From positions 1 to 64,000 of the forward strand of contig JAHLJZ010000115.1 of assembly GCA_025602915.1 (NCBI GenBank): a DNA stretch of 64,000 nucleotides, read 5' to 3'. Below are positions 3-37,181 of the stretch, piece after piece; the first letter of the stretch is position 1; each line of letters starts with the position of its first letter. The translations under genes were made by a program, and so were the position numbers. The notes below the pieces were generated by a model. That model did not search any database, was not told the DNA's origin, and saw only the letters and a program-made list of their open reading frames with translations. The stretch is from Paraphysoderma sedebokerense (taxonomy: Eukaryota; Blastocladiomycota; Physodermatomycetes; Physodermatales; Physodermataceae).

Positions 3-1384
3 TACACTCCGCTATATCTTCAAACCCTCTTAGAATCTAATTCTATGCAATCATGGAATCGGTACTCTAATGAGCCGATTGTATTGTCTACCGTATTGGT
101 ACAATGCGGGGCAGATGTTTTGAGAAGTAATCTGAATCAGGTGATAACGGTATTACAGGTTGCTTTGAGGAGCGAGCTGAATGGGACCAGGAGTGAAGAG
201 GACAAGGAAAAAGAAAAAGAGTGGGAAGTTAGATTATGGTTTGTCATTGATCCTTCTACTCTTCAATTTCAATTGTTATTCCGATGATCGCATTTTCTCT
301 AACTTTCACTAATTCGTCCAGCCTCCTCAACACTTTATTCCAAATTCTGTACTTGTTTGCCTCTTCTTCCTCTGCCCCTTCTCATTCAACGTCAACGTCG
401 CCTTCGTCATTATCTCCTCACCTTCTCGCACTTCTTCAAAATGTATTTGTTCCACTTGCAACTTGGAAAGCAGGTCCCCATAATACAGTGACACGCCTCC
501 GTTGTTTCCAATGTTTGGAGGTTTTGTTCGGCTGCTTTGAACCTACCTCGTTTGCTTTGTCGTCTTCGGCTGTGTCTCTCAGTTTGACATCTTTATCTGG
601 ATTGTCGGTCCCGCCTGTTCCAAAACTCTCGTTTGCATCATCAGATAAAAGCGAAGCAAACTTGACTCTGAATTGTTTGATAACTACTGATTCGTTTGAA
701 CACGAGTATGAAATAAATGGCAAGAAAGAAAGCTTGAGGAAACGGTTTCTGAAAGTGTTGATAGGATCTATTGAGGACGATGAAGCTATCACAAGAGTCG
801 CTTGCTTAAGAGTTTTAAAAAAATGGTTCGAATTGGAAATCGAAAATGGTCAGGCTAGTTTTGATGGTAATTTTTATTTCTCCTAATCTTCAACGTTGTG
901 TTATTCAATGAATTTTCCCCAATATTAAATCATTTTGTCTACCTCCATACCTTAGAAAATCACCTCAAAGAAGTTTACCCCGAAGTTCTCTCGCGTCTTG
1001 ACGATTCATTAGATGCCATTCGAATTCAGGCTTGTCGCACCTTAATCGGTTTGTTAACTTACCTTAAAAAGAATGAAGAGAAGCTCAAGTTGGACGATGT
1101 TCATGGTAAGGAAATTACAAAGATGGTTGTCGTGCATGTAGATGATACGAGAGAGGATGTCGCGGTTAGTTTGTTTTTACTTCAATGTTGGCGCTTGATT
1201 GGTTTCGATATTCATGTTTTATTTGCTTTCGTACGGAATTCTATTGCAGAACGCAGCGTGTGACGTCCTCGCCACTACATCATTGGTTTATCCTCAAATC
1301 GTAAAGGATTATTTAAATAGTGTTAGAGTGAAGTATAGAAATAAAGGGATGATCGAGAAATTAGTGAGTGAAATTGTCGTTTGA
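3..1384 (+). CDS. DNAAF5: Dynein axonemal assembly factor 5 (HEATR2), 3' end
   Basis: Partial gene, its 5' part lying left of the window. Exons 3-238, 322-866, 956-1164 and 1250-1384 keep frame (374 codons plus stop) with introns of 83-91 nt. The product is alpha-helical, HEAT-repeat-like. Its C-terminal third follows the animal DNAAF5 pattern closely: YPEVLSRLDDSLDAIRIQAC, then a leucine-rich helix, VVVHVDDTREDV, and a final SLVYPQIVKDYLNSVRVKYR block before a short tail. In animals and algae DNAAF5 is a cytoplasmic factor that preassembles axonemal dynein arms, so its presence implies a flagellated life stage. The middle of the fragment has a Ser-rich insert (about 359-430) and a poorly conserved stretch (about 550-720). 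The family assignment is from remembered pattern similarity, strongest in the last two exons. Confidence 0.8.
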
Positions 1385-1864
1385 GCAATGGATGGTGTAG
1401 GTTGTACGTTGTTAAAGCGGTGAAACAGTCAGGGGAGAGACGAGTTATATGCCCACCACAGTTACCATTGAAGTGTTTATATATGTACAGATTGAATGAT
1501 TAAAGATTTATCAATTAGAAGACATTACTTCAAAATGAAACATCCAACATAATGTCACCCTGTTACATGTTCGTACTAAAGGAACAGTGAGAGATCGGCA
1601 ACACAATTTAGATGCCTCGGATATGGAAAGGCTTAGTGCCCCAATATAATAGTGTCCTGGCGATACACAAGTTTATTTGCTAATTACATTTACCCTTCTA
1701 TTATTCGACATTAATCCATGTTGCAAACGCCAGTCCACTTTCATATGTTTCAAACTAGAAACCGAAAAAAAGTTGGATATATGTAACCCGTTCCGGACTC
1801 TATGTATACTTTACATCTCAGATTCTAGCTCTGGACCAACAACACATAAATAAAAAGTTAAGAA
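1385..1864. other. Intergenic, no gene seen
   Basis: 3' flank of the DNAAF5 gene and upstream region of the small secreted protein gene. It is AT-rich with no open frame of note. I see no RNA gene or repeat. Confidence 0.5.
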
Positions 1865-2446
1865 ATGGAGGTACGTTTAACTGGTATTCGATATAAGGTT
1901 TAGCCGGGAAATGACATGGACAGATCAACCCACTAACAATTCTTATTTACGGTAATTCAAAGTTGAAACCAGTTATTCTGATTATTAGTCTCTTAGCATT
2001 ACTTGGCTTTGTACAAGCTGAGCAATTAAAATGGAGTATGCACATCTATTGTAATTCTAAAAGAGGACCAGTATGTCATGTTACCACTAATTCGACGTAT
2101 GTACTTTTGTGTTTGATTGCTTGATATCTAGTATTCTACATCTATAACAAATTAGGATACAAGTCCCAACGTTGAAAACTAACCGTGACTGAATTTTAAT
2201 TTTTATTGCCAAAGTCAACTACTGATGCCAATTGATTCGTCTTACCACGCTATTCAAGTTCTTCCGTCGTATCAAGAATCGATTAAACTCAAGTTCTGCA
2301 ACATTGAGTTCCAAAATAAGCAAATTCAATGTAAAACCGTAGATGAAAAAAGTGAGTGCCATAAGAGTAGATGGGGTGGTGATCCTAATGATCCTGAAGG
2401 GTGTGATTGGAGAGAGTGTATGCAAATGACTGAATGTTGGTTATAA
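1865..2446 (+). CDS. Small secreted cysteine-rich protein, 123 aa
   Basis: Not recognised. Model: exon 1 at 1865-1870 (Met-Glu only), exon 2 at 1963-2096, exon 3 at 2215-2446. All phases agree, donors are GTACGT and GTATGT, and both introns contain a CTAAC branch-like motif. The protein starts with a clear signal peptide (MELKPVILIISLLALLGFVQA), then about 100 mature residues with eight cysteines, an even number consistent with four disulfides, ending in a Cys-dense tail (EGCDWRECMQMTECWL). No domain is recognisable and there is no GPI or membrane tail. It lies between the DNAAF5 end and a BT1-family gene and has no related neighbour. A secreted effector-like or extracellular role is inference from the architecture only. 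The 6-nt first exon makes this gene easy for automatic pipelines to miss. Confidence 0.6.
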
Positions 2447-3687
2447 ACTACTATAAATTTGTTGATTGAAAGATGAGGGAAACAATGGAATTCAACTATG
2501 AATGTTCAATAGGTATACCGAAGTAAATTGGCAGAGAAATAAAATATTGCGTGGGAATATTAATGAGTCCTTCAGCCTGAATCGTTAACTTGGCGCGGAA
2601 ACCAATTGTATTGAACTTGCTACTTCACAAATGATTCTTTGTCATTGAGTTAAGAAACATCCAGTGACAGAGCGTCTCAAACCTGTAATGATTTAAAAGT
2701 GGCAAAATCTCTTCTCATCTCTTGCTATGCTCATGAATAACATTGTTGATGGGCAGATTGTAACCTGGATGGTTTCAAATGATTTCAAACACCCATCAAT
2801 CTAAGTTCGTATATGTCGTATTAATTTAGTTACCAAAGTTCATATATAACTCAGATACTACTCATAAAGCAGCTAATTGATTTCTACTGAACAGAATCTT
2901 GCTTTTTCTGCCTTATGATCATTTAGTGTGAAAGTTATTTGGACTTTCGTTGCTTCTCGTTTAGCAAACTTTTGGTTAAGGTCCACAGAATAAGCTACAA
3001 AGTAACATACGCCTAAGAGAAATGATGTCAAAGTTCAGGACAGTTGAGAACTCAGGTGGGCCGCTGGACTTTAACTGCATGAATGTTAATAAACTTCTGT
3101 GAAACATCGCGATTGCGAGTCCATGCAAGTTACAATATTCCTCCATGCAGAATCTGGATAATGTGATTCCAAAATTCCATGGGCAGTCTATGGCGATGTT
3201 TCTATCGATCATTCGAATTGGCTGTTCCGAATAATCTTTAACTTTCAACTCAAGCTGACATAATGTCGCCGAATGATAAGGACAAGCCAGATGAATGGGG
3301 CATGATGGAAGGAGCGGTAATAGCGATTTCAGGCCCTTGCGATGTGACAAGGCAACGACGGAAACGACAGGGTGCTTTGAGGTGCTGTGATAAAGCGGGC
3401 AACGAAGGTGATTTTGACAAATTGTGACGAGGGCAGATATTTTGGCGGCGAGGAAGTCAGCGTTGGGCGGGACACGGAGTCGCATTGATTTCATTATGGC
3501 CGCGCAGGACCACGCACGCGATGCCGTCTTTATGCCACCGCGAGTGATCTTGCTGCCTCTCAGAAGACGTCGCCCCGCCATGGCCCTTGCTTCTGCTGAA
3601 TTCCTCTGAAATATAAGGCTGTCCCCTCGGATGGAACTCTGATTGCATCCCTCCCGTCCGCTCTTCATTAAACGTTTCTCTAGAATC
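2447..3687. other. Intergenic, upstream of BT1-family gene A
   Basis: No convincing gene. The right part (about 3250-3660) is locally GC-richer than its surroundings. It carries a long minus-strand open frame (2976-3704) that runs into the start of the next gene. I treat this as chance because it has no family resemblance and no codon pattern I trust. Confidence 0.4.
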
Positions 3688-6083
3688 ATGGCGGGCATAG
3701 ACAAAGTTTTGAAAGCTGTAACGTACCCATTGAGGGTCCCTATGGAACTCGTTCGGTTCTTCCGAAAAGCAAAGAACGAGTATGGCCTTATGGTCTTGCT
3801 GCTGGTTATTGCATGTTATACATTCCAAGGTACTTGGGCCCACTAATCTGAACGTCCGGTCGAGTTGCCCTTGCTAATAGCAAATCTTTCTTCTTTGCGC
3901 CTACAGGTCTTAGAGCTTACGTTGTATGTTAAGATCTCGCTATATCGAACGCCCCCTACAGCCAGAAGCTAATTTGTTAACTGTTTGCAGGATCTGAGTT
4001 ACGCTTGGTTCGGAAAATACTATTACAAAGTAAAACCATCCGATGCCGAGGCCGGCCAGAAAGCCGCTCAGTTGCCTTGGTGAGTTAGATTTTATCTAGT
4101 CACTCCAGCGCCCGCTCCGTTTTCTTAATAAGAATCTTCCAGGTCACTCAAAGTCGTCTACGGTCTTATTTTTGACAACATACCAATTTTACGCCGGTAT
4201 GCAAAGTTTTGTGTGGCCCTGTTGTCGGGTTGGCGGTAAACTAATGTGCATCGTTGAATAGACACTCAAAACCATACCTTTTGTTGGCCTCTCTATTGGG
4301 AGTCGTTGGGTTTTTAGCGTAAGTGTGAATTTCTTCAGCATCGTCTCGGTCAAAAAGATTACAGATATTAACACTGGGTTTTCAGCTGCTCTTTTGACGG
4401 TGGTGTCCCCAGTTTCGGATCGTTTGTTGCTTTCGGTACTTTAATCCAACTTGGCGGTGCATGCTCGGTTTGTAAAGATTTTCAATGTATAATATATGGG
4501 AACAGCGCTGACTCTTCCTTCGTTTTCAGGATGTATTGGTAGACGGTATCGTCGTAAAAAGTGGCCGAGAAGGGGGTGACGGCAATTCCGCTGATCTTCA
4601 GTACGTTGTTCTTTAAAAACGTTGTGGAATGACTTCGCACTAAGCGCTTGGGTACAATCAGAGCTCTTTCTTGGGTATCTCTTGGTGTCGGATCAATTAT
4701 CAGTACTGTGGTAAGTATCCTTTCTAACTGATTAATGGGTTGTATGATGTCACATTGTTAATCCCTTCTTGATTTAGACCGGTGGTAATCTCGCAAACGC
4801 ATACCTAGCTCCACTAAGTGACAAGAGGGCAGAGCTCGAAGATGGAAAAATAACCAAGGAACAATACAACGACTGGCTTAAGACTGCTATCCTTCCAACT
4901 GAACCACTACGGTGGTACTTCCGATATATGTTATTGTTCCCGGCAATGGTTTTCGTCCTCACTTTGTTCTACAATGAACGTCGATCAAATGTTCGCATAG
5001 CCCTCAAACCCATCGTCTTTAATCTCTGGAAAGTTGTGAAAACCCTATTATTTACTCCTCAAGTACTTAAGCCTATGCTTTGGGTTTACATCGCTAATGC
5101 ATCCAGAATTGCTCAGAGTCAACCTTGGGTATGTAAATATCATCTCCCAGGGCTAGATTAAGTAACAATCTAACACCTAATCTCGACCAACAATTTATCA
5201 GAGTCAATTTTTGGAAGGAGAACTTCATATTACTCCGGATATTCAGGGTTACATCGATATGATTTCCTACGTTTTCTTTATCATCGGAACCATGCTTTGT
5301 AAGTGCCTTATATCTTCCCTTTTTTTATGGGTCCGACTAATCATATGCTCTAAAAAAGATGGTCGATTCCTTACCGGCGTTTCGTATCGCAAACTGTTCT
5401 TCTTTTCCCAATTGGGTGCTGTCGCCATGAGATTTATGAATATCGGTATGTGTCTTTGTTTATCAAATATCCCTGTATACAACAGCTAATCGAGTTCAAT
5501 TGCAGTTATTATTAAACGCTGGAACACTGTTATTGGGATCCCCGATGTCCCTTTCTTGATTCTTGTCTCGTGCGCTGATAACATCATTGATCGATTCAAC
5601 TCTATGCCTTTCTTGGTTCTTGCTGCCCAAGTGTGCCCACCCAATATGGTTAGCTCAAGTCTCTGTTCAGAGATCTACTTAGAATGTTGTTCTAACTCTT
5701 CATTTATAGGAAAATACATTTTTTGCACTTCTCATGTCCTTGTCTAACTTAACTGTCGCGTGAGTGTTTGATTTACTTAATTGGTGCATCAAAATACAGC
5801 TTGCTAACAAATACTCGCTTCCAGTCAATTGCCTGTTGTCTGGTCAAAACCTCTCCTTGATGCCAACGGTCTTGACGGAACCAAGTGGGATGGCTTGGAA
5901 CCAGTGAACTGGATTCACCTTGGTCTCGGATTCATTCCCTTGGCGTTGATTTGGATGGTTCCCACCTTTTCTTCTATTCTTACTGATGCCCAAAGAGTTG
6001 AATTTGGATTGCCAATGAGAGAAAAGCAAGTTGAAGATGTTGAAACAGAAGAAAAATCAAAAGATCAGACCCAGAAGTCTTAA
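3688..6083 (+). CDS. BT1-family (folate-biopterin transporter-like) membrane protein, copy A
   Basis: Fourteen exons: 3688-3829, 3907-3923, 3991-4079, 4143-4196, 4262-4318, 4386-4467, 4530-4600, 4662-4710, 4778-5128, 5202-5298, 5359-5445, 5506-5648, 5710-5759, 5825-6083. They give 515 residues. The protein is polytopic (about 10-12 membrane segments) with an acidic, lysine-rich C-terminus. BT1/MFS hallmarks: GLRAYVDLSYAWFGKYYYK, LPWSLKVVYGLIFDNIPI, the intramembrane ACSDVLVDGIVV block followed by a GNSADLQ motif, and ENTFFALLMSLSNLT. Characterised BT1 proteins move folate, biopterin or S-adenosylmethionine across membranes. The substrate here cannot be told from sequence. A second copy follows 1.3 kb downstream in the same orientation. 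Exon 2 is only 17 nt. Confidence 0.75.
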
Positions 6084-7408
6084 GTAATTAGTTGATTTGA
6101 ATATGTGTTCTGTCTGTCGTCGATGGGAACGGCATCTCATGAATTGTATCATATGGAATTGTTTTTCCCTTTTCATCCATGTTTATCACATTTACTGCGG
6201 TCCTTTAATGTAAAATAAGCTAAATAGATGACTGTTATCGTATCTTTGTGTGATTGCTCGATATAGAGTCTGGTCATGTCTGGTCATCTAATTTAGCTTT
6301 GAAACAATAGACATATTTTAGTTAAACTTTCTCGACCCGACCTGCTGCTTCCTCAGTTTTGAAATTGTATCAAAGTCAAAGCTAATTCCATAATACACCT
6401 GCTTACACAAAGTCGTTAAATCTGATCAAAATGCCAGTAATGCTTAAAGTGAAATCTCTACCAACTCGCAATTCTTGGAACCGCGTGCCGTCAGGGTCCA
6501 AATTAGAGCACGCCGGGTAATAACCCACGCTGGGCACAATTATGCTTAGGATCAACGCTCGAAGGGCGAAGACCATATGCATACACCAGGTGGACGACGG
6601 TTTGAACCTTTGTGGTGGGTGCTCCTTCCGTGGATATTTTTGGATCCATTGAGGTCAGCTCTTCAAGATTAGCTATACTGCGCAATTGCTAAATTTTCGT
6701 ATGCGATAATTTTCAACAGCAGTGCGGTGCTTTATGGAGAGTAGAATTATATTTTTTAGCAAACAATAGCAATTTACTTTAATTACCACTTATCGTTCAG
6801 GGAGGAGATGAGTAAACGATTAACCGCTTCTTGCTTGCGCAGCTGCGCAATTTTCGTCGTTTGACTTATGAGGTGATGGTTCAGGGTTGTGGGTCTCGGG
6901 GGAAGGTTCAACCGTTTACAGCACAAGAAGTACTGCACAAACTGGTGGGTTGATGCCCACAGGCATTTGCTCCAGTCATTGGGTATCAATAGACTTTATG
7001 TCATTAGCGCAAGGATGAATTTGCCCATTGACATCCCTGTTTTGCTTTATTCCTTTATTCCTTTATTCCTTCATTGTTTTTTGGAATCTCGGCCGCTGAG
7101 CAATTGGCGAAGCTTACCACTTATTAAGTTCAAATGATAATAACTGCTTCTTTCATTGGTTGTATTGCCGGTCCGGTCTGGCCCATTTTGGGCGATGTAG
7201 CACTAGCATATGGATCCTGATCGAGGACAGCAGAATGAGCGTCCCACAAGCTAACTTAACGCCCAAGAAGACCGCGCACCACCGATGACCCCGCGAGCAT
7301 AACCAAGGGCGCATCATATAGCGGATTAAAGATAAAATGTCCACCGTCCAGGCTTTCGCTCACCTTCTCAGAAGAAACCTTGTTACTCTCTCGCTGTGTT
7401 GATTAAAT
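6084..7408. other. Intergenic between the two BT1-family genes
   Basis: 3' flank of copy A and promoter side of copy B. Short open frames on both strands show no conserved features. I see no pseudogene copy of the neighbouring transporter here. Confidence 0.5.
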
Positions 7409-9711
7409 ATGTCTGTGATAGATAAAATACTATCGGGGCTCACTTACCCGTTAAGAGCACCTTTAGAGATACTGCAGTTTTTCAGAAAAGCTCGTAGTGA
7501 ATATGGATCAATGGTCTTGATACTGGTTATGACATGTTACCTCTACCAAGGTTAGTTTCCAAATCATTCACCTGGCCGGCCCCCAATAATCGACTAACTT
7601 ACTCTTCACTATGTGATAGGAATGAGAGATTATGTGGTACGTTTCATTAAGTATCGTCTGATTTACTCTTGAGTACATAGGATCTCATACTCGGAATCTC
7701 TTGGCGCAGGATTTAAGTTTTTCGTGGTTTGGCATTTATCACTACAAGCAATCTTCAGATGAAGCAGAGACTGGGCAAAAGGCCGCGTTATTGCCATGGT
7801 CTTTAAAAGTCATCTTTGGTTTATGGTTTGATAATGTTCCGATCTTTAGACGGTTAGTACTGATGATCTGAGGAATTTTTCTGAGTTGCCATCTGTTATT
7901 GATATCAATCTTCCCTGGTCATAATAGTCATTCGAAGCCATACTTGTTGCTTGCTGCTCTTCTCGGAATCGTAGGATTTGTAGCTTGCAGTTTCGATGGA
8001 GGTGTCCCTACCTGGGGTTCATTCATTGGATTTGGAATGTTAATTCAGCTTGGTGGCGCTTGTTCTGATGTCCTCGTTGACGGTATCGTAGTGAAAGCTG
8101 GCCGTGACGGCGGCCAAGGGAACTCTGCCGACTTACAGTACGTTTTCGTCTCTCATTTTGCTAACGCGATTAGTATAACAGAACCTGTGACTAACCGCCT
8201 ACTGTTATCTGTAGATCATTGTCTTGGTCCACACTTGGAGTAGGTAATGATCGACCGTTAATGTTAAAATTTCCATAAATAAGTCATTGAGTCGCTCACT
8301 GTTTTCCATTTACTAGGTCTCATGATTGGACAATTTCTTGGAGGTCAATTATCAGAGCAGTATATCGCACCGATTGATGCCAAGAAGGAAGAACTCAGCG
8401 AAAAGAAGATCACCAAACAAGAGTACACGGACTACATCAATAACACTTATTTCCCAACGGAACCTCTCCGTTGGTACTTCAGATTGATGTTGTTGTTTCC
8501 AGTTATGATCTTTATTGTCACTGCTTTCTACAAAGAACGAAGATCAAACGTGCGTTTTGGTATTCGACCTATTATTTTCAATCTTTGGAAGGTCATCCAA
8601 ACCTTGCTCCTCACTCCTCAAGTGTTGAAACCTATGTTTTGGGTGTATCTCCATAATGCCACGAAAATAAGTATGACAACTCTTTGGGTACGCGGAGGCA
8701 TTTTCCTTTCTCAGTATCCCTACCCGCCTTAACGTCTCGATTTCGTCCATTTCTATAGCCACCATTCTTGCAATCTGAGTTAAATATTTCTCCTGCCGTT
8801 CAAAGTTACGTTGATGCCACCAGCTACGCTTTCTTCATCATTGGTACTATGTTGTGTAAGTTACCATTTGTATATATCGGAAGAAGCGCAGCGACCGCAA
8901 ATTAATATGATTATTGATTAGACGCTCGTTTTTTCACCGGAATGTCTTACCGCAAGCTATTTTTTTACTCTCAAAGTGGAATGATTTTGATGCGTCTCGC
9001 CAACATGGGTAAATATTGTTGTTATTCGATGCCAAAACGACAAGGTTTAGCTAATTGATTTCTCTTTCTCCTATACAGTTCTCATCAAAGAATTGAATTT
9101 GGCTATCGGTATCCCGAACGTGGCTTTCTACTTTATAACATCCTGTGCCAATAACATTATTGAACGTCTAAACTCTATGCCTCTCCTCATATTGGCAGCT
9201 CAAGTATGAATCTAATGTCATTTGCAGTCATCGGCGATTACTTTACTAACGTTTTGCCCAAGGTCTGTCCCCTTGATATGGAAAATACATTTTTTGCTTT
9301 ATTGATGTCTCTATCCAACTTGACAAGCGGGTATGTTGTTTCTCGTACGATGTGTTGCGACGCGTCGTCTGACATCAGTTGGACTTGTTAGGCAATTACC
9401 CTTAATTTGGTCGAAACCCATTATCAAGAGTTATGGTTTGAATGGGAAAGTGTGGACAGGGTATGCTTTTTTGTGTACTATTATTTACTGTCTACTGTAC
9501 TGATTTTCTTGTTAATTGTTCCAGATTTGAAGCTGTAAATTGGATTCATTTCGGTTTAGGATTTATTCCACTGCTCTTTATTTGGCTCCTTCCTACTTTC
9601 TCCGCTATTCTCAGTGACGAGCAACGTATAGAACTTGGCCTGCCAGTGAAGGAAAAGAAGATTGACGAGGAGGAGTTTGAGAAGAAGATGGAGGAATCTG
9701 AGAAGAAGTAA
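7409..9711 (+). CDS. BT1-family (folate-biopterin transporter-like) membrane protein, copy B
   Basis: Twelve exons: 7409-7550, 7620-7636, 7710-7852, 7928-8137, 8215-8243, 8317-8687, 8759-8855, 8922-9008, 9079-9203, 9263-9330, 9392-9460, 9525-9711. They give 514 residues, one fewer than copy A. It aligns with copy A end to end with almost no gaps and shares every BT1 hallmark (ACSDVLVDGIVVKAGRDGG, ENTFFALLMSLSNLT, VNWIHFGLGFIPLLFIWLLP). Residues differ throughout, so the duplication is not recent. Eight intron positions coincide exactly with copy A; three are unique to B and five to A. The 17-nt exon 2 is kept. The C-terminus is a charged Glu/Lys tail. A function different from copy A is possible but not visible. 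Confidence 0.75.
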
Positions 9712-10235
9712 GCGGCTATAATCATCGGGGAATTCACATGTAGACAGAATACTCCAAGTAGGGATAGAGTTTGAGCACTGTGTATATGTTGCCAGTTCAT
9801 TGTAGTGCATTCAAATAGACTGTATAGAGATATAATTCCACATTGTCTCCTGATGAGCATCGTCGTCGTCTAGAATTATATCCATGAATCCATCGTCCTC
9901 ATCTCATTCTATCTCATCTCATCGTATCTTTCTAAAACTCTCTTGCGCGTCAACAATAGGGGAATGTTCTCCGCATGGCTAAGAAGGCGTGTTCTCAGGC
10001 CACAATTTTGTTCCTTGACCTCTCCCGTTCCTCACTCCGTATCATTCGTGACAAACCATCGCTCCTCCGCATCGTAGAGTGACTTTTATCGCTGTCGTCG
10101 ACTCAGTATTGCCCTGCCCTTGTATATTTTGAACGATATACGCCGTTTCGAAACATTCACCCTAGTCTGCCACGTCACGACAAGCTACCCCTCTCCACTG
10201 CAAAAGTATTCCAGAATTTCTTCAAGTAAGACATA
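9712..10235. other. Intergenic, MAP kinase promoter region
   Basis: Contains the 3' flank of the transporter and the leader of the MAP kinase gene, which is pyrimidine-rich from about 9890. No separate gene is seen. Confidence 0.5.
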
Positions 10236-12280
<2,045 letters not shown>

Positions 12281-12642
12281 TTCTTATATTTAACTTACCT
12301 TCAATGGGAGGATAACGCAATTTAATACGTCTGTTGGGAAATCATTCATATGATTTGTACGCGGATGAACACAATATCAAAATAGTTGCTAGTGAGATTA
12401 GCAATATTTGCTTGGGTGTATATTTTGTACTGAACTTCCTTTCCAAGTTTTTGTTTACTCAATTTGTCTGATAATGTAGAAATAAAACGATGGGGTTCCA
12501 TGCTGATTCAATTGTGCAAACTGTGCTGTATTTACTGTGATATCATTTTCTTATTTTTATTATTTTCGTCTATCATTAATTTCTACACACCATCTAGCAT
12601 TTTTTGGGTAATGAATATTCATCAAATTTCTATGTCATGAAA
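12281..12642. other. Convergent intergenic region
   Basis: Shared 3' flank between the plus-strand MAP kinase and the minus-strand GH16 gene. It is AT-rich with AATAAA-like sequence (around 12481), suitable for polyadenylation. No gene is seen. Confidence 0.5.
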
Positions 12643-13917
12643 TTAGAGTCCCAGTAAAACTGCTATCATCACTCCTAAAATTCCACTAGACAATTTTACG
12701 ACTATACTCCAACCATTGGCAGAGCTATCATACACGTTATTATCACCTACAATCCCTCTTGCTGGATTTCCATTGTAATATTTTCCCAATTCACTCTTGC
12801 GAGCTGACTTTGGCGTAACAGGGATGTAGTCTTTAGTTGGGTTTGTATCTTCCTCATGGCATTTCACCTGAATGTAGTCAACTACCATTGCATATTGCGC
12901 AGACTTGGCCGCTGCAGAAGCACTTGGAGAGCACCAGGGGTTTGATCCGCCGGCCCATTCCTTGGTGCTAGTGGAATTGAAATAAAGTTCTTGTCAATAT
13001 CGCCTGTCCACGCGCCAGTAACTTGAATATGAGAATATAATTATCCCATATAGACATAAAAAGTTTTCCAAAGTCATCTGGAAAAGCATCGGTTCCATTT
13101 CTGGTCACTGTTCTCACAGGTTTACCATCAATTATCCACGAAATTGAATTCGGCAACCATTCGATTTCATATAAATGAAACGTCTCGTCCGTTGTACTTT
13201 GGGCTGTTCCAGTTGTCGGATCTTTGAAGTAAGATGGCACTCCTCGAGTATAATCCACAATACCATCGATGTAATAGTTGGTTTGAGTTTCAGTTCTATC
13301 TTTGTACACCCATTCGTAGTCAATTTCGTCACCGACGTGGTCAGAGTCAGCGGATGAGTCGTAAATAAATGAGTTGACTAAGCCAGGTGCAAGGCCGGTT
13401 TTCAAGGAAGCTGAAATACGGCCGTATCGGAACCATCTGGTGGAGAATAATCGAGAGATTTTACCCTGGCCGAGCGTGGCATCGTATGAATGCGTTAAAT
13501 GGAGGAAACCGTCTGAAACTCTCACGGTGTCAAACTTAATAGTTCGAGGAAAGAGATTAGCTTTGATACCTAAGGCTGATATTTTTGAATTCTGTTTGGA
13601 AAAATTACCTCGTCGATAAATCTTGTCTTGTCTGGATCACCATCATATTCGTCCCTTTTCTTGACGGCGGAGCCATCATTGAAGTCCTCTCTAAAACTTT
13701 TGCAACCAGGGTTAATGGAGACGCAGGCACCGGTATAAGAAGCGTTGGCTTGGCATCCTTGCTCTACATAACAATCCATTGGGGTTGCAGAACAGTACCC
13801 ATGGCGATTACAGCATGGAGCCGATTGCGGACATTCGGTTTTGGCGTTTGGGCATTTCACCGCGGCAGTAACTGTGCAAAGCGTTAGGAAAAGTGCTAGA
13901 AGTGTGACGTTTCGCAT
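12643..13917 (-). CDS. Crh-type GH16 cell-wall transglycosylase, chitin-binding and GPI-anchored, copy A
   Basis: Three exons, in transcript order 13917-13609, 13534-13023 and 12967-12643, giving 381 residues. Order of parts: signal peptide (MRNVTLLALFLTLCTVTAA); a Cys-rich chitin-binding-like module (CPNAKTECPQSAPCCNRHGY and on to GAC, about residues 22-65); the GH16 domain with catalytic DEIDYE; a WAGG motif; a Cys pair; and a hydrophobic C-terminus (SSGILGVMIAVLLGL) typical of a GPI signal. Yeast Crh1/Crh2/Utr2 join chitin to beta-glucan in the wall with this same layout. The second intron (55 nt) is short, and the seven residues before the TKEWAGG block differ completely from copy B, so this junction is the least certain part of the model. 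Confidence 0.82.
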
Positions 13918-14005
13918 TTCGTAAGGGATAAGGATTTTGTCGGATTTTTGGAGTCGTGGGGTTACATTGATGGTATTTGTACATCTCCATCGACAATGTT
14001 GTAAC

Positions 14006-14013
14006 TATTTAAA
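14006..14013 (-). promoter_or_regulatory. TATA-like element, GH16 copy A
   Basis: On the minus strand this reads CTTTAAATAG around this position, about 90 nt before the start codon. It is a weaker match than the element of copy B. Confidence 0.3.
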
Positions 14014-14060
14014 GTAACGATGCACTCACTTGTTCAATAAAGGAAACCCCGCAGTTGTTG

Positions 14061-14076
14061 CCGAGAATAGCAACCA
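14061..14076 (-). promoter_or_regulatory. Block shared by both GH16 promoters (copy A)
   Basis: The plus strand reads CCGAGAATAGCAACCA, matching 15 of 16 bases of a block before copy B. Both lie about 140 nt upstream of their start codons. It is either a conserved regulatory site or residual similarity from the duplication. Confidence 0.4.
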
Positions 14077-14266
14077 GGCAAGGGTCACTTGACAAAATTA
14101 TTCCTTCCTGTTTTTAGATATCAAAAAGTGGAATCTATTATAGGAAATCGATATATTTACAGCTTGTTTGTTGTGTAACGACTGTTGAGTAGTATGGCTA
14201 ATTACAACGTACTCGACGCGAATTATATTATCTATGTTACAGTAAACTAAACTTCCTTGAACTTAA

Positions 14267-15522
14267 TTAATTATAGAGTGAAAATATCATTAATGTAAAT
14301 GTTGATAATACGATTGCGAGGTTTGCGCTCAAACTGTATTCCGCGCTCTTTTGAGCTTGCGCATCGTCGTAAGCAGATCCTCGACCGCCAAGTTCTGATC
14401 GTCTGGCAGATTTGGGGGTAATGGGAATATACTCTTTTGTTGGCGTAGTATCTTCTTCGTAGCATTTCATTTCGACATAGTCGACCATCATGGTGTATGT
14501 AGGAGTTTTGGCAGAGGCTGGGGCATTAGTGGCGCACCAAGGCATTTCACCGCCGGCCCATTCTTTAGTCCTGATTAAGATTAACAAATTAGTGTAATGT
14601 CAGTCAAGTCAGTTCAAAAATTATTAGATCAAATATATTATATATACCCTTGTGGCATTTTGCAAGTATCCCATATAGATAAGAACATTCTACCAAAGTC
14701 GTCAGGGAATGGATCGGTTCCGTTTCGACGGACAGTTCTTGCAGTTACGCCATCAATAATCCAAGTAATGGAGTTTGGCAACCATTCAATTTCGTACAAG
14801 TGGAAGGCTTCATCGGTTCTGCTGTTATTGAAGTAGTATGGTACTCCGCGGGTGTAATCGATTATACCGTCAATGTAGTAATTGGTTTGAGATTCTGTGC
14901 GGTCTTTGTGAACCCATTCATAATCAATTTCATCACCGTAGTGATCGGAGTCAGCGGAGGAATCATATATGAAAGAGTTGACGAGACCAGGAGCCAAGGA
15001 AGTTCTCAAACGAGCAGAGAAACGACCATATCGGAACCAACGGGTGGATGTCACTCTGGTAATTTTGCCGTGTCCAAGAGATTCATCAAATGCATGAGTC
15101 ATTTGCATGAAACCGTTTTCTACTTTAACCGTATTAAACTAAGATAGGGTGACAGGCAAGGTTAGAATTGCTACGAGGAGAACCGAATTACAATTATTAC
15201 TTACTTCATCGATGAATCGAGTCTTGTCTGGATCACCATCGTATTCAGTTCTTCTTCGAACGGAAGAGGGATCATTGAAGTCTTCCCTGAAACTTTTACA
15301 TTTTGGTGGCGACTTGATACACGCGCCTGTGTAAGAAGCATTCTGCTGGCAACCTTGATCAACGAGACAGTCGATTGGATCAGCCGAGCAATAACCCCCA
15401 CGATTACAGCAGGGAGCAAATTTGTCACATTGTCGATTGGCTTTAGGACAGACGGTAGCATTTGAGCATGAGACAACTGATAAAACGAAAATGGCGATTA
15501 TAAAGAGTTGCTTATCTTGCAT
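14267..15522 (-). CDS. Crh-type GH16 cell-wall transglycosylase, chitin-binding and GPI-anchored, copy B
   Basis: Three exons, in transcript order 15522-15205, 15138-14648 and 14570-14267, giving 370 residues. The layout is the same as copy A: signal peptide (MQDKQLFIIAIFVLSVVSCSNA), Cys-rich chitin-binding-like module with APCCNRGGYCSADPIDC, GH16 domain with DEIDYE, TKEWAGG, Cys pair, and hydrophobic GPI-type tail. Both introns are at the same positions and phases as copy A, so the pair is a tandem duplication. Here the residues between SIWD and TKEWAGG (TCKMPQG) look like an ordinary Crh-family loop, unlike copy A. It likely acts outside the plasma membrane in wall crosslinking, and the neighbouring MAP kinase is of the type that controls such genes in yeast. 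Confidence 0.85.
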
Positions 15523-15595
15523 GTCGATCGAACGTTCACTCCGGTGTTAGAACCTTCTGTGTTGAGTTGTTGGAACAGAGAAAGGGGGAGTGTCA

Positions 15596-15605: not shown

Positions 15606-15657
15606 GGATTAAACTCAAATAAGAGTTTAGCCAGAACAATACACCTGACGTTAGCAT

Positions 15658-21955: not shown

Positions 21956-22283
21956 GTCATGGAAGAGAAATTAACTAATAGTTTATGTTACAGATGTATT
22001 TATTGTTGATCCCACTCTATTTGTATTTATTTTTTCATGCATATACTTTCCCTGTTTTATTACCTCGATTGCCGTTTTTAATAAACGAACTGGTTGAAAA
22101 TCAATTGATCTTGATAAGAAAAGTTTGAACCAAAATACCACAAAAAGGATTCTGAATCTTTATTTCTATTATCTGACATGCGCAGGTTATTTAGAATCGA
22201 GTCATGTCTCCAACGCGATTCGAAGAAACCTATACTCTATATTTCGCTACATAACTAATGTTGTACGCTATAAATTTGCACTT
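21956..22283. other. Convergent intergenic region
   Basis: 3' flanks of the cytochrome-b5 fusion gene and the minus-strand glycosyltransferase gene. AT-rich, no gene seen. Confidence 0.5.
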
Positions 22284-24773: not shown

Positions 24774-25592
24774 TAATCAAAACTTCTGGATATTGTCTGA
24801 ACCTGCGCCTCCTACCGACAATTGACAATCTCCTTATGAATTCGCAAGGACTGAATTTATTGAGCAAGCAAAACAGAGTGAAGAGTAAGTATACTAAGAG
24901 GAACAGTCAAAAAGCAACACTCGACGGTATTTATGTACGACCTACACAGCTGAGTCAAATTGGTTATGTATTTATTTTCGCGATTTTCGATTGCTTTCTA
25001 CCGCTGCCAAGAATCCATTCTACCCGTAATGATAATCTGACACGAAAAGCTTCTGTTATTTGAAATGCTAGCAAATGCAGGCGGGAAGGTGATGTCGAAA
25101 GTATATCCCGTTGTGTCGGCGGCGTTGTGGTGTTGTCGAGTGTAGAATGCATGACGTCACACCGGACAATCAAACATTACAATTCTGATATGGTTGATCC
25201 ATCATTTAAGCAACGAAGTAACGACTGAAGGTCGGTGAGTTTTAAATACCGACAACAAAATGGGAGGGCACAGACTAGTCTTTGCACGAATTGTCATAGT
25301 AAGAGATCTAATATACAGAATCGCGGAATAGTCACCACTTGGCCTGTATTACTGATGTACAATTCCGGAGAAATCGAAGGGCGGGATATGTTCCCTTAAA
25401 GATAATTTAATGGGCATTTCCTTTCAAATATTATTTTGCGGAATCATATCCATTGTCATTCCTGATATGATCTCTATGTAATAACTTCATGGCACGTGAT
25501 GGTCGCCAAAACAAAGCTGCAGGCATCAACTCGCATTAACGGAGCTCGGCTGGCATACTCATCCTAATTGACTGTTTGAAATTAGAGGGAAT
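24774..25592. other. Divergent intergenic region
   Basis: Upstream DNA of the minus-strand glycosyltransferase and the plus-strand SLX9 gene. It contains a perfect CRE-like TGACGTCA. No gene is seen. Confidence 0.5.
25152..25159. promoter_or_regulatory. CRE-like palindrome TGACGTCA
   Basis: Exact 8-nt ATF/CREB-type palindrome, about 380 nt left of the glycosyltransferase start in that gene's upstream direction and 440 nt before SLX9. Whether either gene uses it is unknown. Confidence 0.35.
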
Positions 25593-26504
25593 ATGCCTAA
25601 GTTAACTCAACCAAAGAAATCAAGAATTCATGCCCCCGCGGCCCGAATCGTATCTTCCAACTCATCCGGTCTTCCCGACGAGCAGTCGTCCACCCATTCT
25701 TCATCTCTTTTCAACCTACCTGATATCCAGAATTATATATCCTCAATTCCCGTTTCGTCCGTAGATCACACAAATATAGGAGTTCCAGACGATTTATCAA
25801 ATGACTCCCTACCGTTTTTTGTCGATTCGAAAGGTACCGTAGAGAAAGACAGATTTGGGAGAGATAAACCGAGGAATAAGAAATTGAAAAGGCTGGAGAA
25901 ACATAAGGAATTTTTGAAAAGTAGGTTTACATTTCTTTAAAATTATGTAGTGGTAATGATACTCCTTGAATGAAGAGGTCGAGTCAAGAGCAAGTTTCAC
26001 TTAACGGAACAATTCACCTCAAATCCATTCTCGCAGTATACGTAAAGGGGATTTACTGAATTTATGCTGATATACTTCTCTTTGTGATCTTATTATATAG
26101 AACTGTCCGTGCAGAAACCCACTCTGCCCACGCCTCCCAAACCTTTGCTATCTTTAAAAGACGATTTCACCGGCGTTCTCGAATCAATGAATGATCCGAC
26201 TGATGTGGAAAATGTAATCAAGAAAGCAGAATTGGAAGAAAAAGAAGCCAAAAATAAGATGAGGATGGAACGAGTAAGCACAAGAAAAGGACGGAAAAAG
26301 AAAACGTATGTTGATTCCTTCGCATCTATTGATTGATGAAAATGGGTATTTCAACAGTGTTGTAACTAATCGTCAATTGTCATGCTCGGCAATAGTGAAG
26401 TCGAAGCGGCTAGATTTCAGCAGGTTTTGAAGCATCCGACTTTCCTGTCTGACCCATTTGCCGCTATTCAACAGCATCTCTCGAATACTGTCGGAAAGAA
26501 GTGA
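25593..26504 (+). CDS. SLX9: Ribosome biogenesis protein SLX9 (FAM207 family)
   Basis: Three exons: 25593-25920, 26101-26305, 26396-26504. They give 213 residues. Lys-rich and helical, with two family signatures: a basic KKLKRLEKHKEFLKKL block, and the C-terminal RFQQVLKHPTFLSDPFAAIQ motif that ends SLX9/FAM207 proteins. SLX9 works in the nucleolus in 40S subunit maturation and export of pre-40S particles. Another AG near 26356 would give a different frame; the acceptor at 26395, preceded by a GTAACTAAT branch-like sequence, keeps the conserved C-terminus in frame. Length is normal for fungi. It is in the same orientation as the downstream DHX16 gene. Confidence 0.82.
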
Positions 26505-26846
26505 TATAACGGACTCTATTCCACCGTATTTAGCATTAATATATTGTACAGATTTATAAATTAAAATACATGGAATACTATGATTAATGTAAACAAATAA
26601 ATTAGCAAGAATTGGCATCGAAATTAAGACGTGGAGGAATGAACCCGCGAACCAAGTCGAGTAAACAACATCCTCGGCCGAAGACACACTCATTCAGATA
26701 TCATATACCCACTGTCATTACATATCCAACACAGACCTAAGGATCTCAGTCATTATCAATTCGGCTATCCCACTTAGTTTTATTCTGTCATCCATCGACT
26801 TATCCCCGATTTCTATCCATTTCATCCTTCTCGACTGTTTGACGAT
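26505..26846. other. Intergenic, SLX9 to DHX16
   Basis: Short spacer with the SLX9 3' flank and DHX16 leader. No gene is seen. Confidence 0.5.
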
Positions 26847-31177
<4,331 letters not shown>

Positions 31178-31783
31178 GCAGTTGTAGATGTGGTTGTGAT
31201 TGTGGTTGTTTTCATTGTGGTTGTAGAGAGGGAATGGAATGGATAGTGGATACAGTGTACATGCAATCAAAGGGAACTCCTGTGAACCAGCCGTGAACGT
31301 GTGAACAGACGAGTCAAGTGACGCCGATGGGTCGGATTCCCTCTTTGAATCTTTCTGCTGTGGTCACTGTGGACAGGACGCAGGAGTGGAATAGCTTCCA
31401 CCATACATGCAGAATATCACTCTCACTGCAGAATATCACACTAGCATTCTATCTCATTTTCTGCGACAGAAAACGCAAAGAGAAAAACGTTTCCTGCAAT
31501 CGGCCAGTGCGAGTGCAATTCCCTCTCTCGCGGCAATCCACTCTTGTGCAGTATACATCCATAGAGACATAGAGACAGATATAGCTGATGTCGATGCCTT
31601 GAACCCGCACTCTCTGCTGAAATCATACGCTCCAGTCTCAGACTCCCTTTTCCGCCCTCTCCATCCCTCCCTCCCTCGCTCTGACTCACTCCCTCCACTC
31701 ACCAACCTCTCCTCGTGCAACGTCAGCACACTATACCTCTGTACACTTCACACTCTACCCTGTCTGAATCTCGGAATAGTGAA
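31178..31783. other. Intergenic, DHX16 to RNF10
   Basis: Pyrimidine-rich RNF10 leader from about 31610. The RNF10 frame is open upstream to 31715, so the exact start codon is uncertain. No separate gene is seen. Confidence 0.5.
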
Positions 31784-34700
31784 ATGGGAAAGAGAGACAA
31801 AGATAAAATGAGTTTCAGAGGACAAAATAGAAATTATCGAACCGGAAATGCCAGGTCCGCAGAACAACACCATCATCATCCTTCCAACAACCATCATTCC
31901 GCGGCCTCCCAATCACAGCATCTTCATCATCATCATCCACAAAGTAGCAGTAATAATCATCGACATGCAAATTCTAATGCGGGAGGTAAAAGTAACAAAA
32001 GTAGCACTAAACAGTCGTTGAACCACCTCCTGAATTTCAATTTCCCACCGAGGCAACGTCCTTCGGCGAGTGCCCCGAGACGAGGTACTAGACTTAATTC
32101 CAGCGGATCTAGAGAGTTTTTTAACAAGGAAAAATTTGTCAATGCAAAGTATGTCATCTTTTGTGCGGATCCGAAATGAGATGACGGGCGCAGCAAAAAC
32201 GTTTGAAGGACCGCTCAGATACTAATTTTAAATTATATTGCCCATCTCCCTATAACAGTTATAGATTTGTGGTAAAACAGACCGGAGATTACACCATCCA
32301 GCTTTACGATCCAGATGTGACGATTGATTGGGGTGATATTGAACAAGTGGTAATGTCACCTTTCTAACCTACGTCTATAGCTAGCGAATAGCATCCAAGT
32401 ATCTGACAATTTGCCTTCTATCGTTAGCTTCTCACTACTTCTAATCCACCTTCTTGCCCGATATGCCTCTCTTCCACGCCCTTGGCTCCACATATTACCA
32501 AATGCGGACATACATTCTGCTATCCTTGTATCGTTCAATATCTGACGATTGACCCTTACGATCCAGCGTCTCAGAATAACCCCGATCTAGCCGCTAGCTT
32601 GAAGAAACGGAAATGGAGAAAGTGTCCAATTTGCTGGGAGTCTGTCTACGAAAACGATTTGAGGTCGGTGAAAATTATTGCGGCGGATGGTGTTGCAGCA
32701 GCGGACGACAGCGTAATGTCACCTGTACCAAGTGATTTCGAGGATGGATCCAAAGATAAAACTTTGGTGAAACTGAGATTGATGAGTCGTCATGTCGTAA
32801 GTACTACAGGTTTGTCAGCCACTGAATCTGAGTTGCGTCTAACTTGCATCCCTTATTCTCTTTATCAGAGTTCAATTCTTGTGGCTCCTCGATCGGAACC
32901 ATTCTCAGATTTACTGAGTCCGCCACCGCATTACCAAAACCAGGCATTTACATTCGCTAAACTCGTTTTGGCTGCACCACAATACATCACGCAAGAAATC
33001 CTTCAAAAAGACATTGACGCCATTCAACATGAAAGGAAAGAGATTTCAGATCTACTCAGCTCAATCCGCTTGGCTCGTCAATTGGCTCGAGAACCCTCCC
33101 CCTCACCGCCGTCATCCGCTTCCTCCTCTTTATCCTCGAGTAACCCCTGGCATCGTAATCCGATCGTGCCCCCGCCAAAACCACCTTCCCCGACACTTGC
33201 ACCCCTACCCCCAGAATCCGAATCCAGTTCAACGGAACTGTTTTACCTTGAATTAGCTGTCTCAAAATTGCAGTCCAAGTTAGAATCAGTCCTTGAATCC
33301 ATTGCTTCCTCCCCTACGATTGATGTTGATAAGATTGTGAGCGTTAGCAATGAAGTCAAAAAGAAGATGGTGGAAGATGAACTGAAACGAAGAGAGAATG
33401 AGAGGATAGAGATGAACAAGCATGAAGAAGAAAGGAAATTGGCAATCGAAAGAGAATTAAAAAGAGTTCAAAAACAACTGCGGGTATACATCGTTCATTC
33501 TGTCTTGACATAGTGTTTAGGTGACTGACTTGAATTGTAAATTAGGATTCTGAGATGTATGAACCAGCTTTTTCAGACGAAGAGTATTACGATATATCGC
33601 ATGAAGAATCGTATCCTACCGAATCTGAAATGGAAGATGATGAACCGATTTTTGATTATTCACCACCTGGGTCGCCTATGGTCTCTGTGTCCAAGTCGAG
33701 GAAAACCCCCAAAAATGTATCCATTCGCATTTCAAAAGACGATTCATCAAATTCAAGTTCGTCGGCCGCCACCTCGCCGACATTCATCAACCCTTCTAGT
33801 TCATCTTCTTCCTCCAAACACTCTGCAAACGCTACCACCAAATCGACTGCGACAGCCTCAGCGGCCAACGCTAAAACTGAAACATTCTATTTCTATCAAC
33901 ACGCTGCCGGTTTATACATTTACCTGCACCCGCTAGACATCAAGATTCTTAAACACGAGTTCGGTAATTACAATTTATTCCCGGATGAGTTGACGGTTAA
34001 AATTGTGAGTGTACAAGAAACGACGATGGATGAAGATCTAAGAAGGAAATGTAGATATTTAAGTCATCTCCCTAAAGGTTGTGATGTCGGTTTCGTAGAG
34101 GTAGATTTGAATGGCGTTGTCGGTAAAGAAACTTTAGAAGCTTTCAAAGGTATGCATGCGTCTATTTGCCGGTCTCTGCAAAACTGAATATTCGCTGACT
34201 TTAAACTTGTTTCACTTTATTTTTCTTTTTTGTTATTGTGAAATATGTGATGATTAGATGAGTTGTCGACAAGAATACACCGTCGTAAATCAAAATTCCA
34301 ACAAGAAGAGAAGGCTCGCCGATTAGTTGAACGAAAATTAGCATTGCAGCAATCCGAATCTTCACCTCGAATGGTCCCATCTCCCGGCACCGCGCCTTCG
34401 TTTCCCTCTCTTTCCTCATCATTCCCGGGTTCTTCTTCTCTCAGTTTGGACTATTACAACATGGGTAGTGGATTCGGTGACGGGGAAGTTCCAAGTCCGG
34501 TACTTTCGCCTGTTGAGTTTCCCGCATTTCCAGCTCTATCGAATCGGAGCGCCTCTGATCGTGGCCATGATCGTGTAAGAGGCAAAGACAAGGAAAAACA
34601 ACGAGTTCAGTCAACGTCAACAAATGACAAATCGTTACCGATACCCGTCGCGTCTTCGTCTACTTCTCCCTCGTCGAACCCATCATCGAACACCGTATCC

Positions 34701-35159
34701 CCGGTAGACTCACTTCTTGCCTCGTCATCTGCATTGTATCCTACACCTTCTTCTCCACTCAGTTCATCTCTGACAAATCAACAACCCGTCAACACCAATT
34801 CGTCTAACCCGTGGAACTCATCCACTCGAACCAGTTTTGCCAAAATCGTTGGAACAGGGTACAATGGCGTCGGGAGCGGTGGTAGCAGTGGTTCAATGAA
34901 ATGGGAAAAACAAAGCGTTAAAAAATCAGAAGAAAGTAAAAACAAAATCGAAGTTCAATTGGATTGGGGTGCGGGGTTGGGTGGGTTGGTTGTAGAACAA
35001 AGTGAGATTGAGAAAGATCGGAATCTTGAGAAACGGGATGGAGAAAGTGGATTCAAAAATGACGAGACTGAAGAAGGAAAAGTACAAGCAAGCGCAGGGA
35101 AGAAGAAAAAAAAGGGTAAAGTTGTGTTGGTCTCCACCGGCGGTGCAAGACGGTATTAA
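31784..35159 (+). CDS. RNF10: RING finger protein 10 (RNF10/Mag2 family) E3 ligase
   Basis: Six exons: 31784-32148, 32259-32349, 32428-32796, 32869-33483, 33546-34149, 34258-35159. They give 981 residues. Family landmarks in order: NHLLNFNFPPR near residue 85; DYTIQLYDPDVTIDWGDIEQV; the RING CPICLSSTPLAPHITKCGHTFC continuing to KCPICWESV; FYFYQHAAGLYIYLHPLDI; and RYLSHLPKGCDVGFVEVDL. These are the RNF10 landmarks, and yeast Mag2 is the counterpart. RNF10 ubiquitinates 40S proteins uS3 and uS5 on stalled initiating ribosomes. There is a poly-His run near the N-terminus and long Ser-rich linkers. The 78-nt third intron is in frame; I removed it because it has good splice signals and interrupts a conserved block. 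An earlier in-frame ATG exists at 31715. Confidence 0.88.
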
Positions 35160-35782
35160 ATTTACAAGTGTGTCTATCGTTGGCTGTTGTCTGTCGTCTG
35201 TGACGAATTGATGTCGGAACAATGGAGCTACATGTCATTACGTTCTTGATTTTTCTTTCACCCGATTTTTTTGTTCCTGCTTTCCAGTTATTTCTCGCAA
35301 CTCGCACTTCATCGCAAAGCACATTCTCTCTCCATTTTGGAATTTCAGTTTAGTGTGTGTAGTTGAATCTCATATATGCAATTAGGATGTATTATTATGG
35401 TTGACTTCCCTTGGCTTAGAAAGCAAGATCACAGAGAAATTTGTAAATATATCCAATCATCACTACAGACTCTTCAGGTTCTCTTTTCTTCATAGACCTC
35501 ACGCACATTAAGAGATACCTTCCAATGTTTGGAATTATACGTATTTTGATACAGAAATAACAAAAGTACACTCCTAAATGAATATGATCCCTTGATTCTC
35601 GAAACGACTTGCAACAACACGCGTCTCCATCCAGAATAAGCATTCAATCATACATTCACCATCTTCCTCACCAGCACGCACTCTACCCTATCCCATCTTT
35701 AATACTCTCATCTACTCAATCCTTGATTCTCAGTAACCTGTTACCACCGTTTCAGATACTTAGAAAATTATAAAGATAAAAA
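35160..35782. other. Intergenic, RNF10 to calaxin
   Basis: AT-rich, with RNF10 3' flank and calaxin leader. No gene is seen. Confidence 0.5.
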
Positions 35783-37181
35783 ATGGAGAAACAAAATAAG
35801 CAGTCTCCTATTGAAGAGTTACTCAAGATTACGAATTGTAATGTTCGGTCTTACATTTTGAAGTATGACTCGTTATTTTGTAATTAATCTTAACTTTTCT
35901 TTGTTGGTTTTTTATCTTGATTTCAATGGAATTTATTAATCGACTTGGACGAACGGAATGCATAATGATGGTCACAATGGTAACGATGGATACGAATGAT
36001 GGATACGGGATGTGGATTCAACGGGTTCAATAGTTTCAAAACAAGAATTAGAAATACTTACCCGGAATTTCAACTATTTGTCACCTGTAAATGACAAAGT
36101 CGATAAAACCCATTTTAGAGATTTATTATGTGATCATTTTGGGATTGATGATTCGTTGTTAATGGATCGAGGTATGGGGATTTACTCTTTTATTTGGAGT
36201 TAATTTGGAGTTTTCTTTTTTCTGGGGTTGTGTGGGTTTGTGTGTTTGAGGTTGATGATTAAATATTTGTATTCTTTTTCTTGGGGTGCTCATTTGGTGG
36301 GTAGTGTTTAGATGTTTTGATGCGGATGCGGATAATTATATCAGTTATGATGAATTTATGAAAGGGATGTCTGTGTTTTTGAAAGGGAAATTCGAAGAAC
36401 AAATGAAATGTAGGTTTATTTCTTTCTACACCTAATGCATATCGAACAGTTTCGGTGGCGACTTTTGGAATTAACGTTGCTTTTTGGGATTGATTAATGC
36501 GGGGGGATGAATGTGTAGTTTGTTTTCGTGTGTTTGATTTGAATGGGGATCGGTATATCTCGAAGGAAGAAATGTTTCAAATGTTGAAGAATTGTTTGGT
36601 GAAGGTAAGACAAATTCACGACACTAACGAAATATCTAGTCCAGATGGACAGTGTGATACTGATGTTTGTCCGTTTTGGTTTATATTTACATTTTAGGGA
36701 TCAGAAGAGGACGAAGATGGGGTGAAAGATTTGGTGGATTTAGTTTTAAAAAAGTTGGATGAAGATCGTGATGGAAGAGTGAGTGAGCAGGATTATGTTG
36801 CTGCAGTTACAAAAGAGAATTTACTATTGGAAGCGTTTGGTCAATGTCTGCCTATACCAAAGGTGCGTCTTTTGCTCTAATTTTCCTATACGTACGATGA
36901 CCTTATATATTTGCATGCATTCATTGCGTCAATTTTGCACGCTACTTCAGGCGGTACAATCGTACCTCGATCCAGATAAAATTCCGGCACCTATTAATCC
37001 ATCGGCTTCATCGTATTCAAATGCCCTCCAGTCCGCTCAAGTCTCCGCTGCCGTATCAGCTAGAACCGGCTCTCCGATTGATAAAAAGATGATTGGTACA
37101 GGTAAGAAGGAAAGTACAGGAAAGCAGACGGAGGTGATAGGGATGACTGGAAAACGATCAGGAAAGACAGCTGTGGCTTGA
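35783..37181 (+). CDS. EFCAB1: Calaxin (EF-hand, axonemal dynein regulator)
   Basis: Six exons: 35783-35837, 36034-36171, 36305-36409, 36519-36604, 36698-36862, 36951-37181. They give 259 residues. It matches animal calaxin (EFCAB1/CLXN) in detail: [20 protein letters not shown], the [22 protein letters not shown]-hand, a third EF-hand with [13 protein letters not shown], and the closing block [13 protein letters not shown]. The first exon end (GTAATG donor at 35838) was chosen because it yields [10 protein letters not shown], which aligns with the family start. Calaxin is a calcium sensor of the outer dynein arm and its docking complex. A low-complexity C-terminal extension (about 75 residues) is added relative to animals. 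With DNAAF5 this supports motile zoospores. Confidence 0.88.

Follow-up and report, generated by a model that had tools for sequence, protein, structure and literature searches.

A predicted calaxin gene and the 3' half of a predicted DNAAF5 gene within a broad flagellar gene set of the fungus Paraphysoderma sedebokerense

Our analysis of a 64,000-base window, bases 1-64000 of contig C115 (67,635 bases) in the 27.3-Mb, 195-contig assembly of Paraphysoderma sedebokerense, makes it highly probable that the window is chromosomal DNA of this fungus and that two of its genes, calaxin and DNAAF5, belong to a broad flagellar gene set which likely builds the flagellum of a zoospore. The organism is a blastoclad (Blastocladiomycota), as its taxonomy and protein matches at 100% agree. 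In the most likely scheme, calaxin, DNAAF5 and the rest of the set would build the single posterior flagellum of a short-lived zoospore, which would then turn into an infectious amoeba; we infer that the genes are expressed and working in that flagellum. The zoosporic stage of P. sedebokerense is already published, and the biology is known and ordinary. An earlier note on this DNA, made from the sequence alone, had taken both genes as intact and had argued from them to a zoosporic stage; the first of these claims stands for calaxin only, and the second is supported.

The predicted calaxin (EFCAB1) gene occupies 35783-37181 on the + strand. Its six exons make up a frame of 259 codons that opens with ATG and closes with TGA, and all five introns have GT-AG boundaries:

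35783..35837, + strand: calaxin exon 1, from the ATG (gene model, GT-AG introns)
36034..36171, + strand: calaxin exon 2 (gene model; aligned to calaxin 5x9a and 7rro)
36305..36409, + strand: calaxin exon 3, first EF-hand loop (gene model, PDB match, alignment)
36519..36604, + strand: calaxin exon 4, second EF-hand loop (gene model, PDB match, alignment)
36698..36862, + strand: calaxin exon 5, third EF-hand loop and an 11-residue motif (gene model, PDB match, alignment)
36951..37181, + strand: calaxin exon 6, long C-terminal tail and TGA stop (gene model, alignment)

When the model is compared with the PDB (best 60 of 294 matches), the four top sequences are all calaxin/EFCAB1, at 170-178 bits. 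The best of them, 5x9a, scores 177.8 bits, against 87.1 bits for the next protein, a calmodulin/calcineurin fusion, and the margin of the best calaxin chain over the best calcineurin-B or NCS-type chain is 90 bits. Moreover, among the best 120 of 489 relatives in a protein search, where some rows are nameless or carry a code only, the species, wherever a row spells it out, is an animal or a zoosporic fungus and in no case a member of Dikarya or Mucoromycota. After P. sedebokerense itself, the best-ranked named calaxins in that list are those of Catenaria, Coelomomyces, Rozella and Allomyces. We aligned 19 rows hand-picked from these 120, namely 15 fungal sequences including that of the window and 4 animal ones, and the three EF-hand loops of the window calaxin align without gaps to the four animal calaxins, the third loop having a D at position 12 that matches across the whole alignment. 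The model is 100% identical to P. sedebokerense BKA69DRAFT_1022516 across 67% of its length. The exon structure, the complete frame and the calaxin matches together bear out the earlier description of the gene as intact, and we regard 35783-37181 as a complete, orthologous calaxin gene, as predicted from its sequence. Calaxin has been described as specific to opisthokonts and as occurring in Batrachochytrium, while opisthokonts that lack motile cilia through their whole life are reported to have none (Inaba 2015, PMC4415241). Genes for a putative calcium-dependent binding between calaxin and outer-arm heavy chains, those of the outer-arm beta and gamma chains and of an ODAD1-type protein, are present in the assembly.

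The second gene, at 3-1384 on the + strand, is predicted to be DNAAF5, of which the window holds the 3' half only: four exons that encode the C-terminal 374 residues up to the stop, cut because the window starts at base 1 of C115.

3..238, + strand: first coding stretch of the DNAAF5 3' half, inside the exon numbered 8, cut by the contig end (gene model; alignment to homologues)
322..866, + strand: DNAAF5 exon carrying an insert that the homologue profile lacks (gene model, profile)
956..1164, + strand: DNAAF5 exon with YPEVLSRLDD, where homologues have YPELLKRLDD (gene model, homologue comparison, profile)
1250..1384, + strand: last DNAAF5 exon, to the stop codon (gene model, profile)

Pfam gave six matches on this piece, all below their cut-offs and none specific to DNAAF5, and its identity was therefore taken from a profile of homologues. 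A search for relatives with the window piece alone returned just its own database copy, the length range covered by that search not extending to full-length DNAAF5. The 5' part of the gene lies on contig C46 (178,481 bases), in a seven-exon model of 606 residues with part of an eighth exon recognised by eye, and matches a P. sedebokerense protein at 99%. The Pfam families TPR_DNAAF5 and HEAT_DAAF5 pass their cut-offs on C46 and on contig C135, with no such match in the window, and partial second copies of the 5' half occur on both of those contigs. Among 7,994 candidates scored, the 5'-half model finds 29 proteins, including those of Batrachochytrium, Allomyces and Trichoplax and a Babylonia "dynein axonemal assembly factor 5-like" protein; the nearest, after the sequence itself, are from chytrids, followed by Allomyces and animals. 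The window piece was not used to gather these 29 proteins; it aligns to the C-terminal part of 19 of them at E 1e-3 or better. Those of the 29 that reach 780 residues, 23 in all, were made into a profile, on which the piece scores 163.8 bits over positions 547-834 of 837, none of its 200 shuffled versions being reported. Among 121 other proteins compared, it matched nothing beyond its database copy and a single sequence at E 0.87. The identity proposed in the earlier note thus holds, with a 163.8-bit profile match behind it, but the intactness does not, since the piece has 374 C-terminal residues and the 5' half is on C46. The deposited annotation likewise gives the gene as two separate proteins, neither named DNAAF5: P0122 is entered as an armadillo-type protein and P0121 as a hypothetical protein; the window piece is 100% identical to P. 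sedebokerense BKA69DRAFT_1102492 across 79% of its length.

If these two genes serve a flagellum, others should accompany them, and the earlier note had indeed proposed looking for dynein heavy chains and intraflagellar transport (IFT) proteins. A DHC_N2 search of the assembly, with all 12 candidates scored, gave 13 exon matches that group into eight heavy-chain genes: two outer-arm, four inner-arm, one IFT and one cytoplasmic. Classes were assigned by the best PDB match, as follows.

Outer-arm beta: DNAH17, 1376 bits
Outer-arm gamma: top chain 1056 bits, DNAH5 1045 bits
DNAH2: 949 bits
DNAH10: 1120 bits
DNAH1: 828 bits
DNAH7-like: 259 bits
DYNC2H1 (IFT): 1386 bits
DYNC1H1: 794 bits

For the gamma gene the top PDB chain is labelled CFAP57 despite its 4,730 residues, with DNAH5 close behind. 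For each of the six axonemal heavy-chain genes, the top animal chain outscores the top Chlamydomonas chain: 1376 v 1003 bits for outer-arm beta, 1056 v 771 for outer-arm gamma, 949 v 819 for DNAH2, 828 v 700 for DNAH1, 259 v 147 for the DNAH7-like gene and, narrowly, 1120 v 1069 for DNAH10.

The heavy-chain genes are also unevenly placed. Four of them, the DNAH7-like gene, DNAH2, DYNC1H1 and outer-arm gamma (loci L004, L006, L007 and L008), are clustered in a stretch of about 67 kb on a single contig of 276 kb (C26, 68,685-135,958); under uniform placement the chance of at least four of the eight falling on C26 is about 7e-7, a value not corrected for the choice of contig. These four are of distinct classes, and recent tandem duplication is therefore no explanation. 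On another contig, C7, a DNAH1 match at 376202-377410, an NYD-SP28 match at 488848-488994 and a DNAH10 match at 506863-508077 all lie within about 132 kb.

Eight further families each have at least one match over the Pfam cut-off: HEAT_DAAF5, TPR_DNAAF5, Radial_spoke, IFT57, NYD-SP28, ODAD1_CC, SAS-6_N and DUF4471. We take Radial_spoke to stand for RSP4/6, NYD-SP28 for DRC1/2 and DUF4471 for DNAAF3. None of 14 control genomes gave a flagellar-family match over the cut-off, though those named are archaea and so do not bear on loss in other fungi; in the IFT57 search three archaea among them scored below it. The IFT machinery sought is represented by IFT57 over its cut-off together with DYNC2H1. 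By its predicted genes, then, the assembly holds outer-arm and inner-arm, spoke, nexin-DRC-type, IFT, docking-complex-type and centriole components. Two outcomes that the earlier note had set against its own claim, a lack of other flagellar genes and a generic nature of both models, are not what we found, given the heavy chains and the Radial_spoke, IFT57, NYD-SP28, ODAD1_CC, SAS-6_N and DUF4471 matches on the one side and the calaxin margin and the colinearity of the DNAAF5 piece with DNAAF5 proteins on the other. Since genes of every flagellar module searched are present, a rarely seen zoospore would be no remnant without machinery.

The step from these genes to a zoosporic stage agrees with published observations. 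Strittmatter et al. 2015 describe fast-swimming zoospores with a single posterior flagellum that turn into amoebae (PMC4851982), and flagellated zoospores are reported in two later papers as well (PMC6446968, PMC7912770). Galindo et al. 2021 mention P. sedebokerense and compare 61 flagellum-specific proteins across 43 taxa, of which it may or may not be one (PMC8371127). The main text of an atlas of 184 fungal proteomes, in the part available, does not name Paraphysoderma (PMC13358043). Several points weigh on the other side. Hoffman et al. 2008 saw no flagella and named the fungus aplanosporic, as told in PMC4851982, and Letcher et al. 2016 had no success in capturing motile zoospores, as told in PMC6446968. 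In the assembly itself, the NYD-SP28 matches are weak (27-42 bits against a cut-off of 22), a heavy chain of DNAH6 class is absent from the 13 exon matches, where an intron-cut domain could hide a class, and whole DNAAF5 was found on no contig, its halves being joined nowhere in the contigs searched. We nevertheless consider that the gene evidence answers the old aplanosporic description.

How might the break in DNAAF5 have arisen? On C46 the 5' half runs into part of exon 8 and then into an open reading frame unlike DNAAF5, while on C135 a different open reading frame reads in frame into the 3' half; Pfam gave no match on either flanking frame. When the halves are placed against homologues they meet nearly end to end, with hardly any sequence lost between them, the break falling within one exon (exon 8); C115 probably ends no more than a few tens of bases away from it. 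Near one end of C135 lies the 3' half, and near the other a portion of the 5' half, both facing outwards: C135:1-6732 equals window 6732-1 at 100%, C135:29040-42290 equals C46:165285-152035 at 100%, and C135:26001-29039 has no match in the C46 stretch compared. A 500-base probe across the C46 side of the break matched only C46, and a 401-base probe across the C135 side matched C135 and, apart from it, just bases 1-133 of C115, in a search that skips simple repeats and scores the best candidates only. The break may be an assembly fault, a heterozygous break or a fixed one.

The pattern at C46, C135 and C115 is the one that an inversion of about 36 kb would leave, with one break in DNAAF5 and the other in another gene. 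A real rearrangement of this kind, splitting DNAAF5 on one or both homologues and perhaps leaving dynein-arm assembly impaired or polymorphic, would fit the two reading frames at the break, the abutting halves, the outward-facing parts on C135 with ends overlapping C115 and C46 at 100%, and the failure of the probes to find a joined form on any contig. We nonetheless judge it unlikely, because the same contigs show assembly trouble. There appears to be a 13,196-base head-to-tail repeat on C46 (152090-165285 and 165286-178481) that ends exactly at the contig end; the repeated stretch includes most of the DNAAF5 5' half, its second copy shows 100% identity across the 5,715 bases compared, and the repeat is probably an assembly artefact, while C135 repeats its neighbours at both ends. 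Moreover, the pattern was read from contigs alone and leaves aside C135:9001-26000, and isolates PS1 and AZ_ISR do form flagellated zoospores according to published work (PMC4851982, PMC7912770), though the sequenced isolate may be neither of them. That an inversion of about 36 kb, with its break in DNAAF5 exon 8, is carried in heterozygous or fixed form by the sequenced isolate seems to us a shade more doubtful still, and we found no report of a Paraphysoderma genome inversion in the open-licence literature. On balance we lean towards an assembly fault, or one rearranged allele, as the source of the split.

A splice mutation of HEATR2 that truncates the final HEAT repeat, found in a family with primary ciliary dyskinesia, is said to destabilise the protein (PMC4168999), and a true break in DNAAF5 would therefore be expected to harm motility. 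If the inversion were real, flagellar motility would be seen at an early stage of breaking down, starting from a factor for dynein-arm assembly, in a briefly swimming, amoeba-dispersed fungus that keeps a broad flagellar set, and motile and immotile isolates would possibly coexist. We flag the break for P. sedebokerense, be it an artefact or an early stage on the way to a fungus that no longer swims.

A different possibility is that the flagellar genes are contamination from the algal host Haematococcus, a flagellated relative of Chlamydomonas, or from another protist in the culture, and that the fungus has no flagellum. The parasite kills cultured algae and does live on this green alga (PMC4851982), but calaxin, reported to be opisthokont-specific (PMC4415241), shares one P. 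sedebokerense contig with the DNAAF5 3' half. Furthermore, the best-ranked named calaxins are those of the four zoosporic fungi given above, the DNAAF5 5' half is nearest to chytrids, then Allomyces and animals, and all six axonemal heavy chains are closer to animal than to Chlamydomonas chains, DNAH10 narrowly so. We reject this explanation, which contig context, calaxin and DNAAF5 relatives and heavy-chain scores together render very improbable. Even less credible, and rejected on the calaxin score margin and the DNAAF5 colinearity, is the idea that neither model is specific, one being an EF-hand protein of calcineurin-B-like type and the other some unrelated protein with HEAT repeats, so that they would say nothing about flagella: Pfam, which names no domains other than EF-hands in calaxin and gives sub-threshold HEAT-like matches for the DNAAF5 piece, would allow it, but the 90-bit gap, the zoosporic or animal source of those calaxin relatives, among the best 120 of 489, whose species is spelled out, the DNAAF5-specific families on the 5' half and the C-terminal match to 19 of 29 DNAAF5 proteins speak against it.

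Elsewhere in the window, Pfam matches on 20 open-reading-frame pieces include GH16, LCAT, protein-kinase, PPR, CBS, RING and mitochondrial-carrier domains. Three neighbouring gene pairs have translations that look similar by eye, one transporter-like (4778-5489 and 7872-8732), one of GH16 type with a cysteine-rich N-terminus (12643-14004 and 14267-15546, with Pfam confirming one GH16 piece only) and one resembling a mannanase (42887-43970 and 45325-46418), and from these local tandem duplication seems common on C115. Two further reading frames about 9 kb apart on the contig, at window 55020-55640 and L009:1020-1980, are also alike by eye, both secreted-looking with AHFTL.GSR near the start; the former has no Pfam match.

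How does this gene set compare with those of other flagellated organisms? Like the calaxins of Batrachochytrium, Allomyces, Catenaria and animals, that of P. sedebokerense has three EF-hand loops and the LLLEAFG.CLP region; among the matches listed it is 76% identical to the Catenaria sequence over 76% of the query and 42-55% identical to the animal sequences given by name. Its C-terminal tail after the motif is 79 residues long, against 17-24 in the four animal sequences. Of the other fungal tails that could be measured, six have 31-86 residues, one has 11, and that of the truncated P0001 has 0. A long tail (window 36951-37181) is thus a trait of most of the 15 fungal rows, and several of these tails hold or end in a basic-then-hydrophobic stretch (for example RVVV, RVLVP or GKTAVA) that by eye none of the four animal rows has. 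The DNAAF5 of P. sedebokerense resembles the DNAAF5/HEATR2 of chytrids, Allomyces and animals in carrying TPR_DNAAF5 and HEAT_DAAF5 on its 5' half and in its colinear C-terminal piece, and differs from them in being split over contigs in the assembly. A parallel in way of life is offered by the Sanchytriomycota, which share with P. sedebokerense amoeboid propagules in a parasite of algae, and whose amoeboid zoospores have a reduced and immotile flagellum (PMC8371127). According to the same paper, sanchytrids have lost axonemal as well as inner-arm dyneins, the whole of IFT-A and several IFT-B proteins, whereas P. sedebokerense has outer-arm and inner-arm heavy chains and IFT57.

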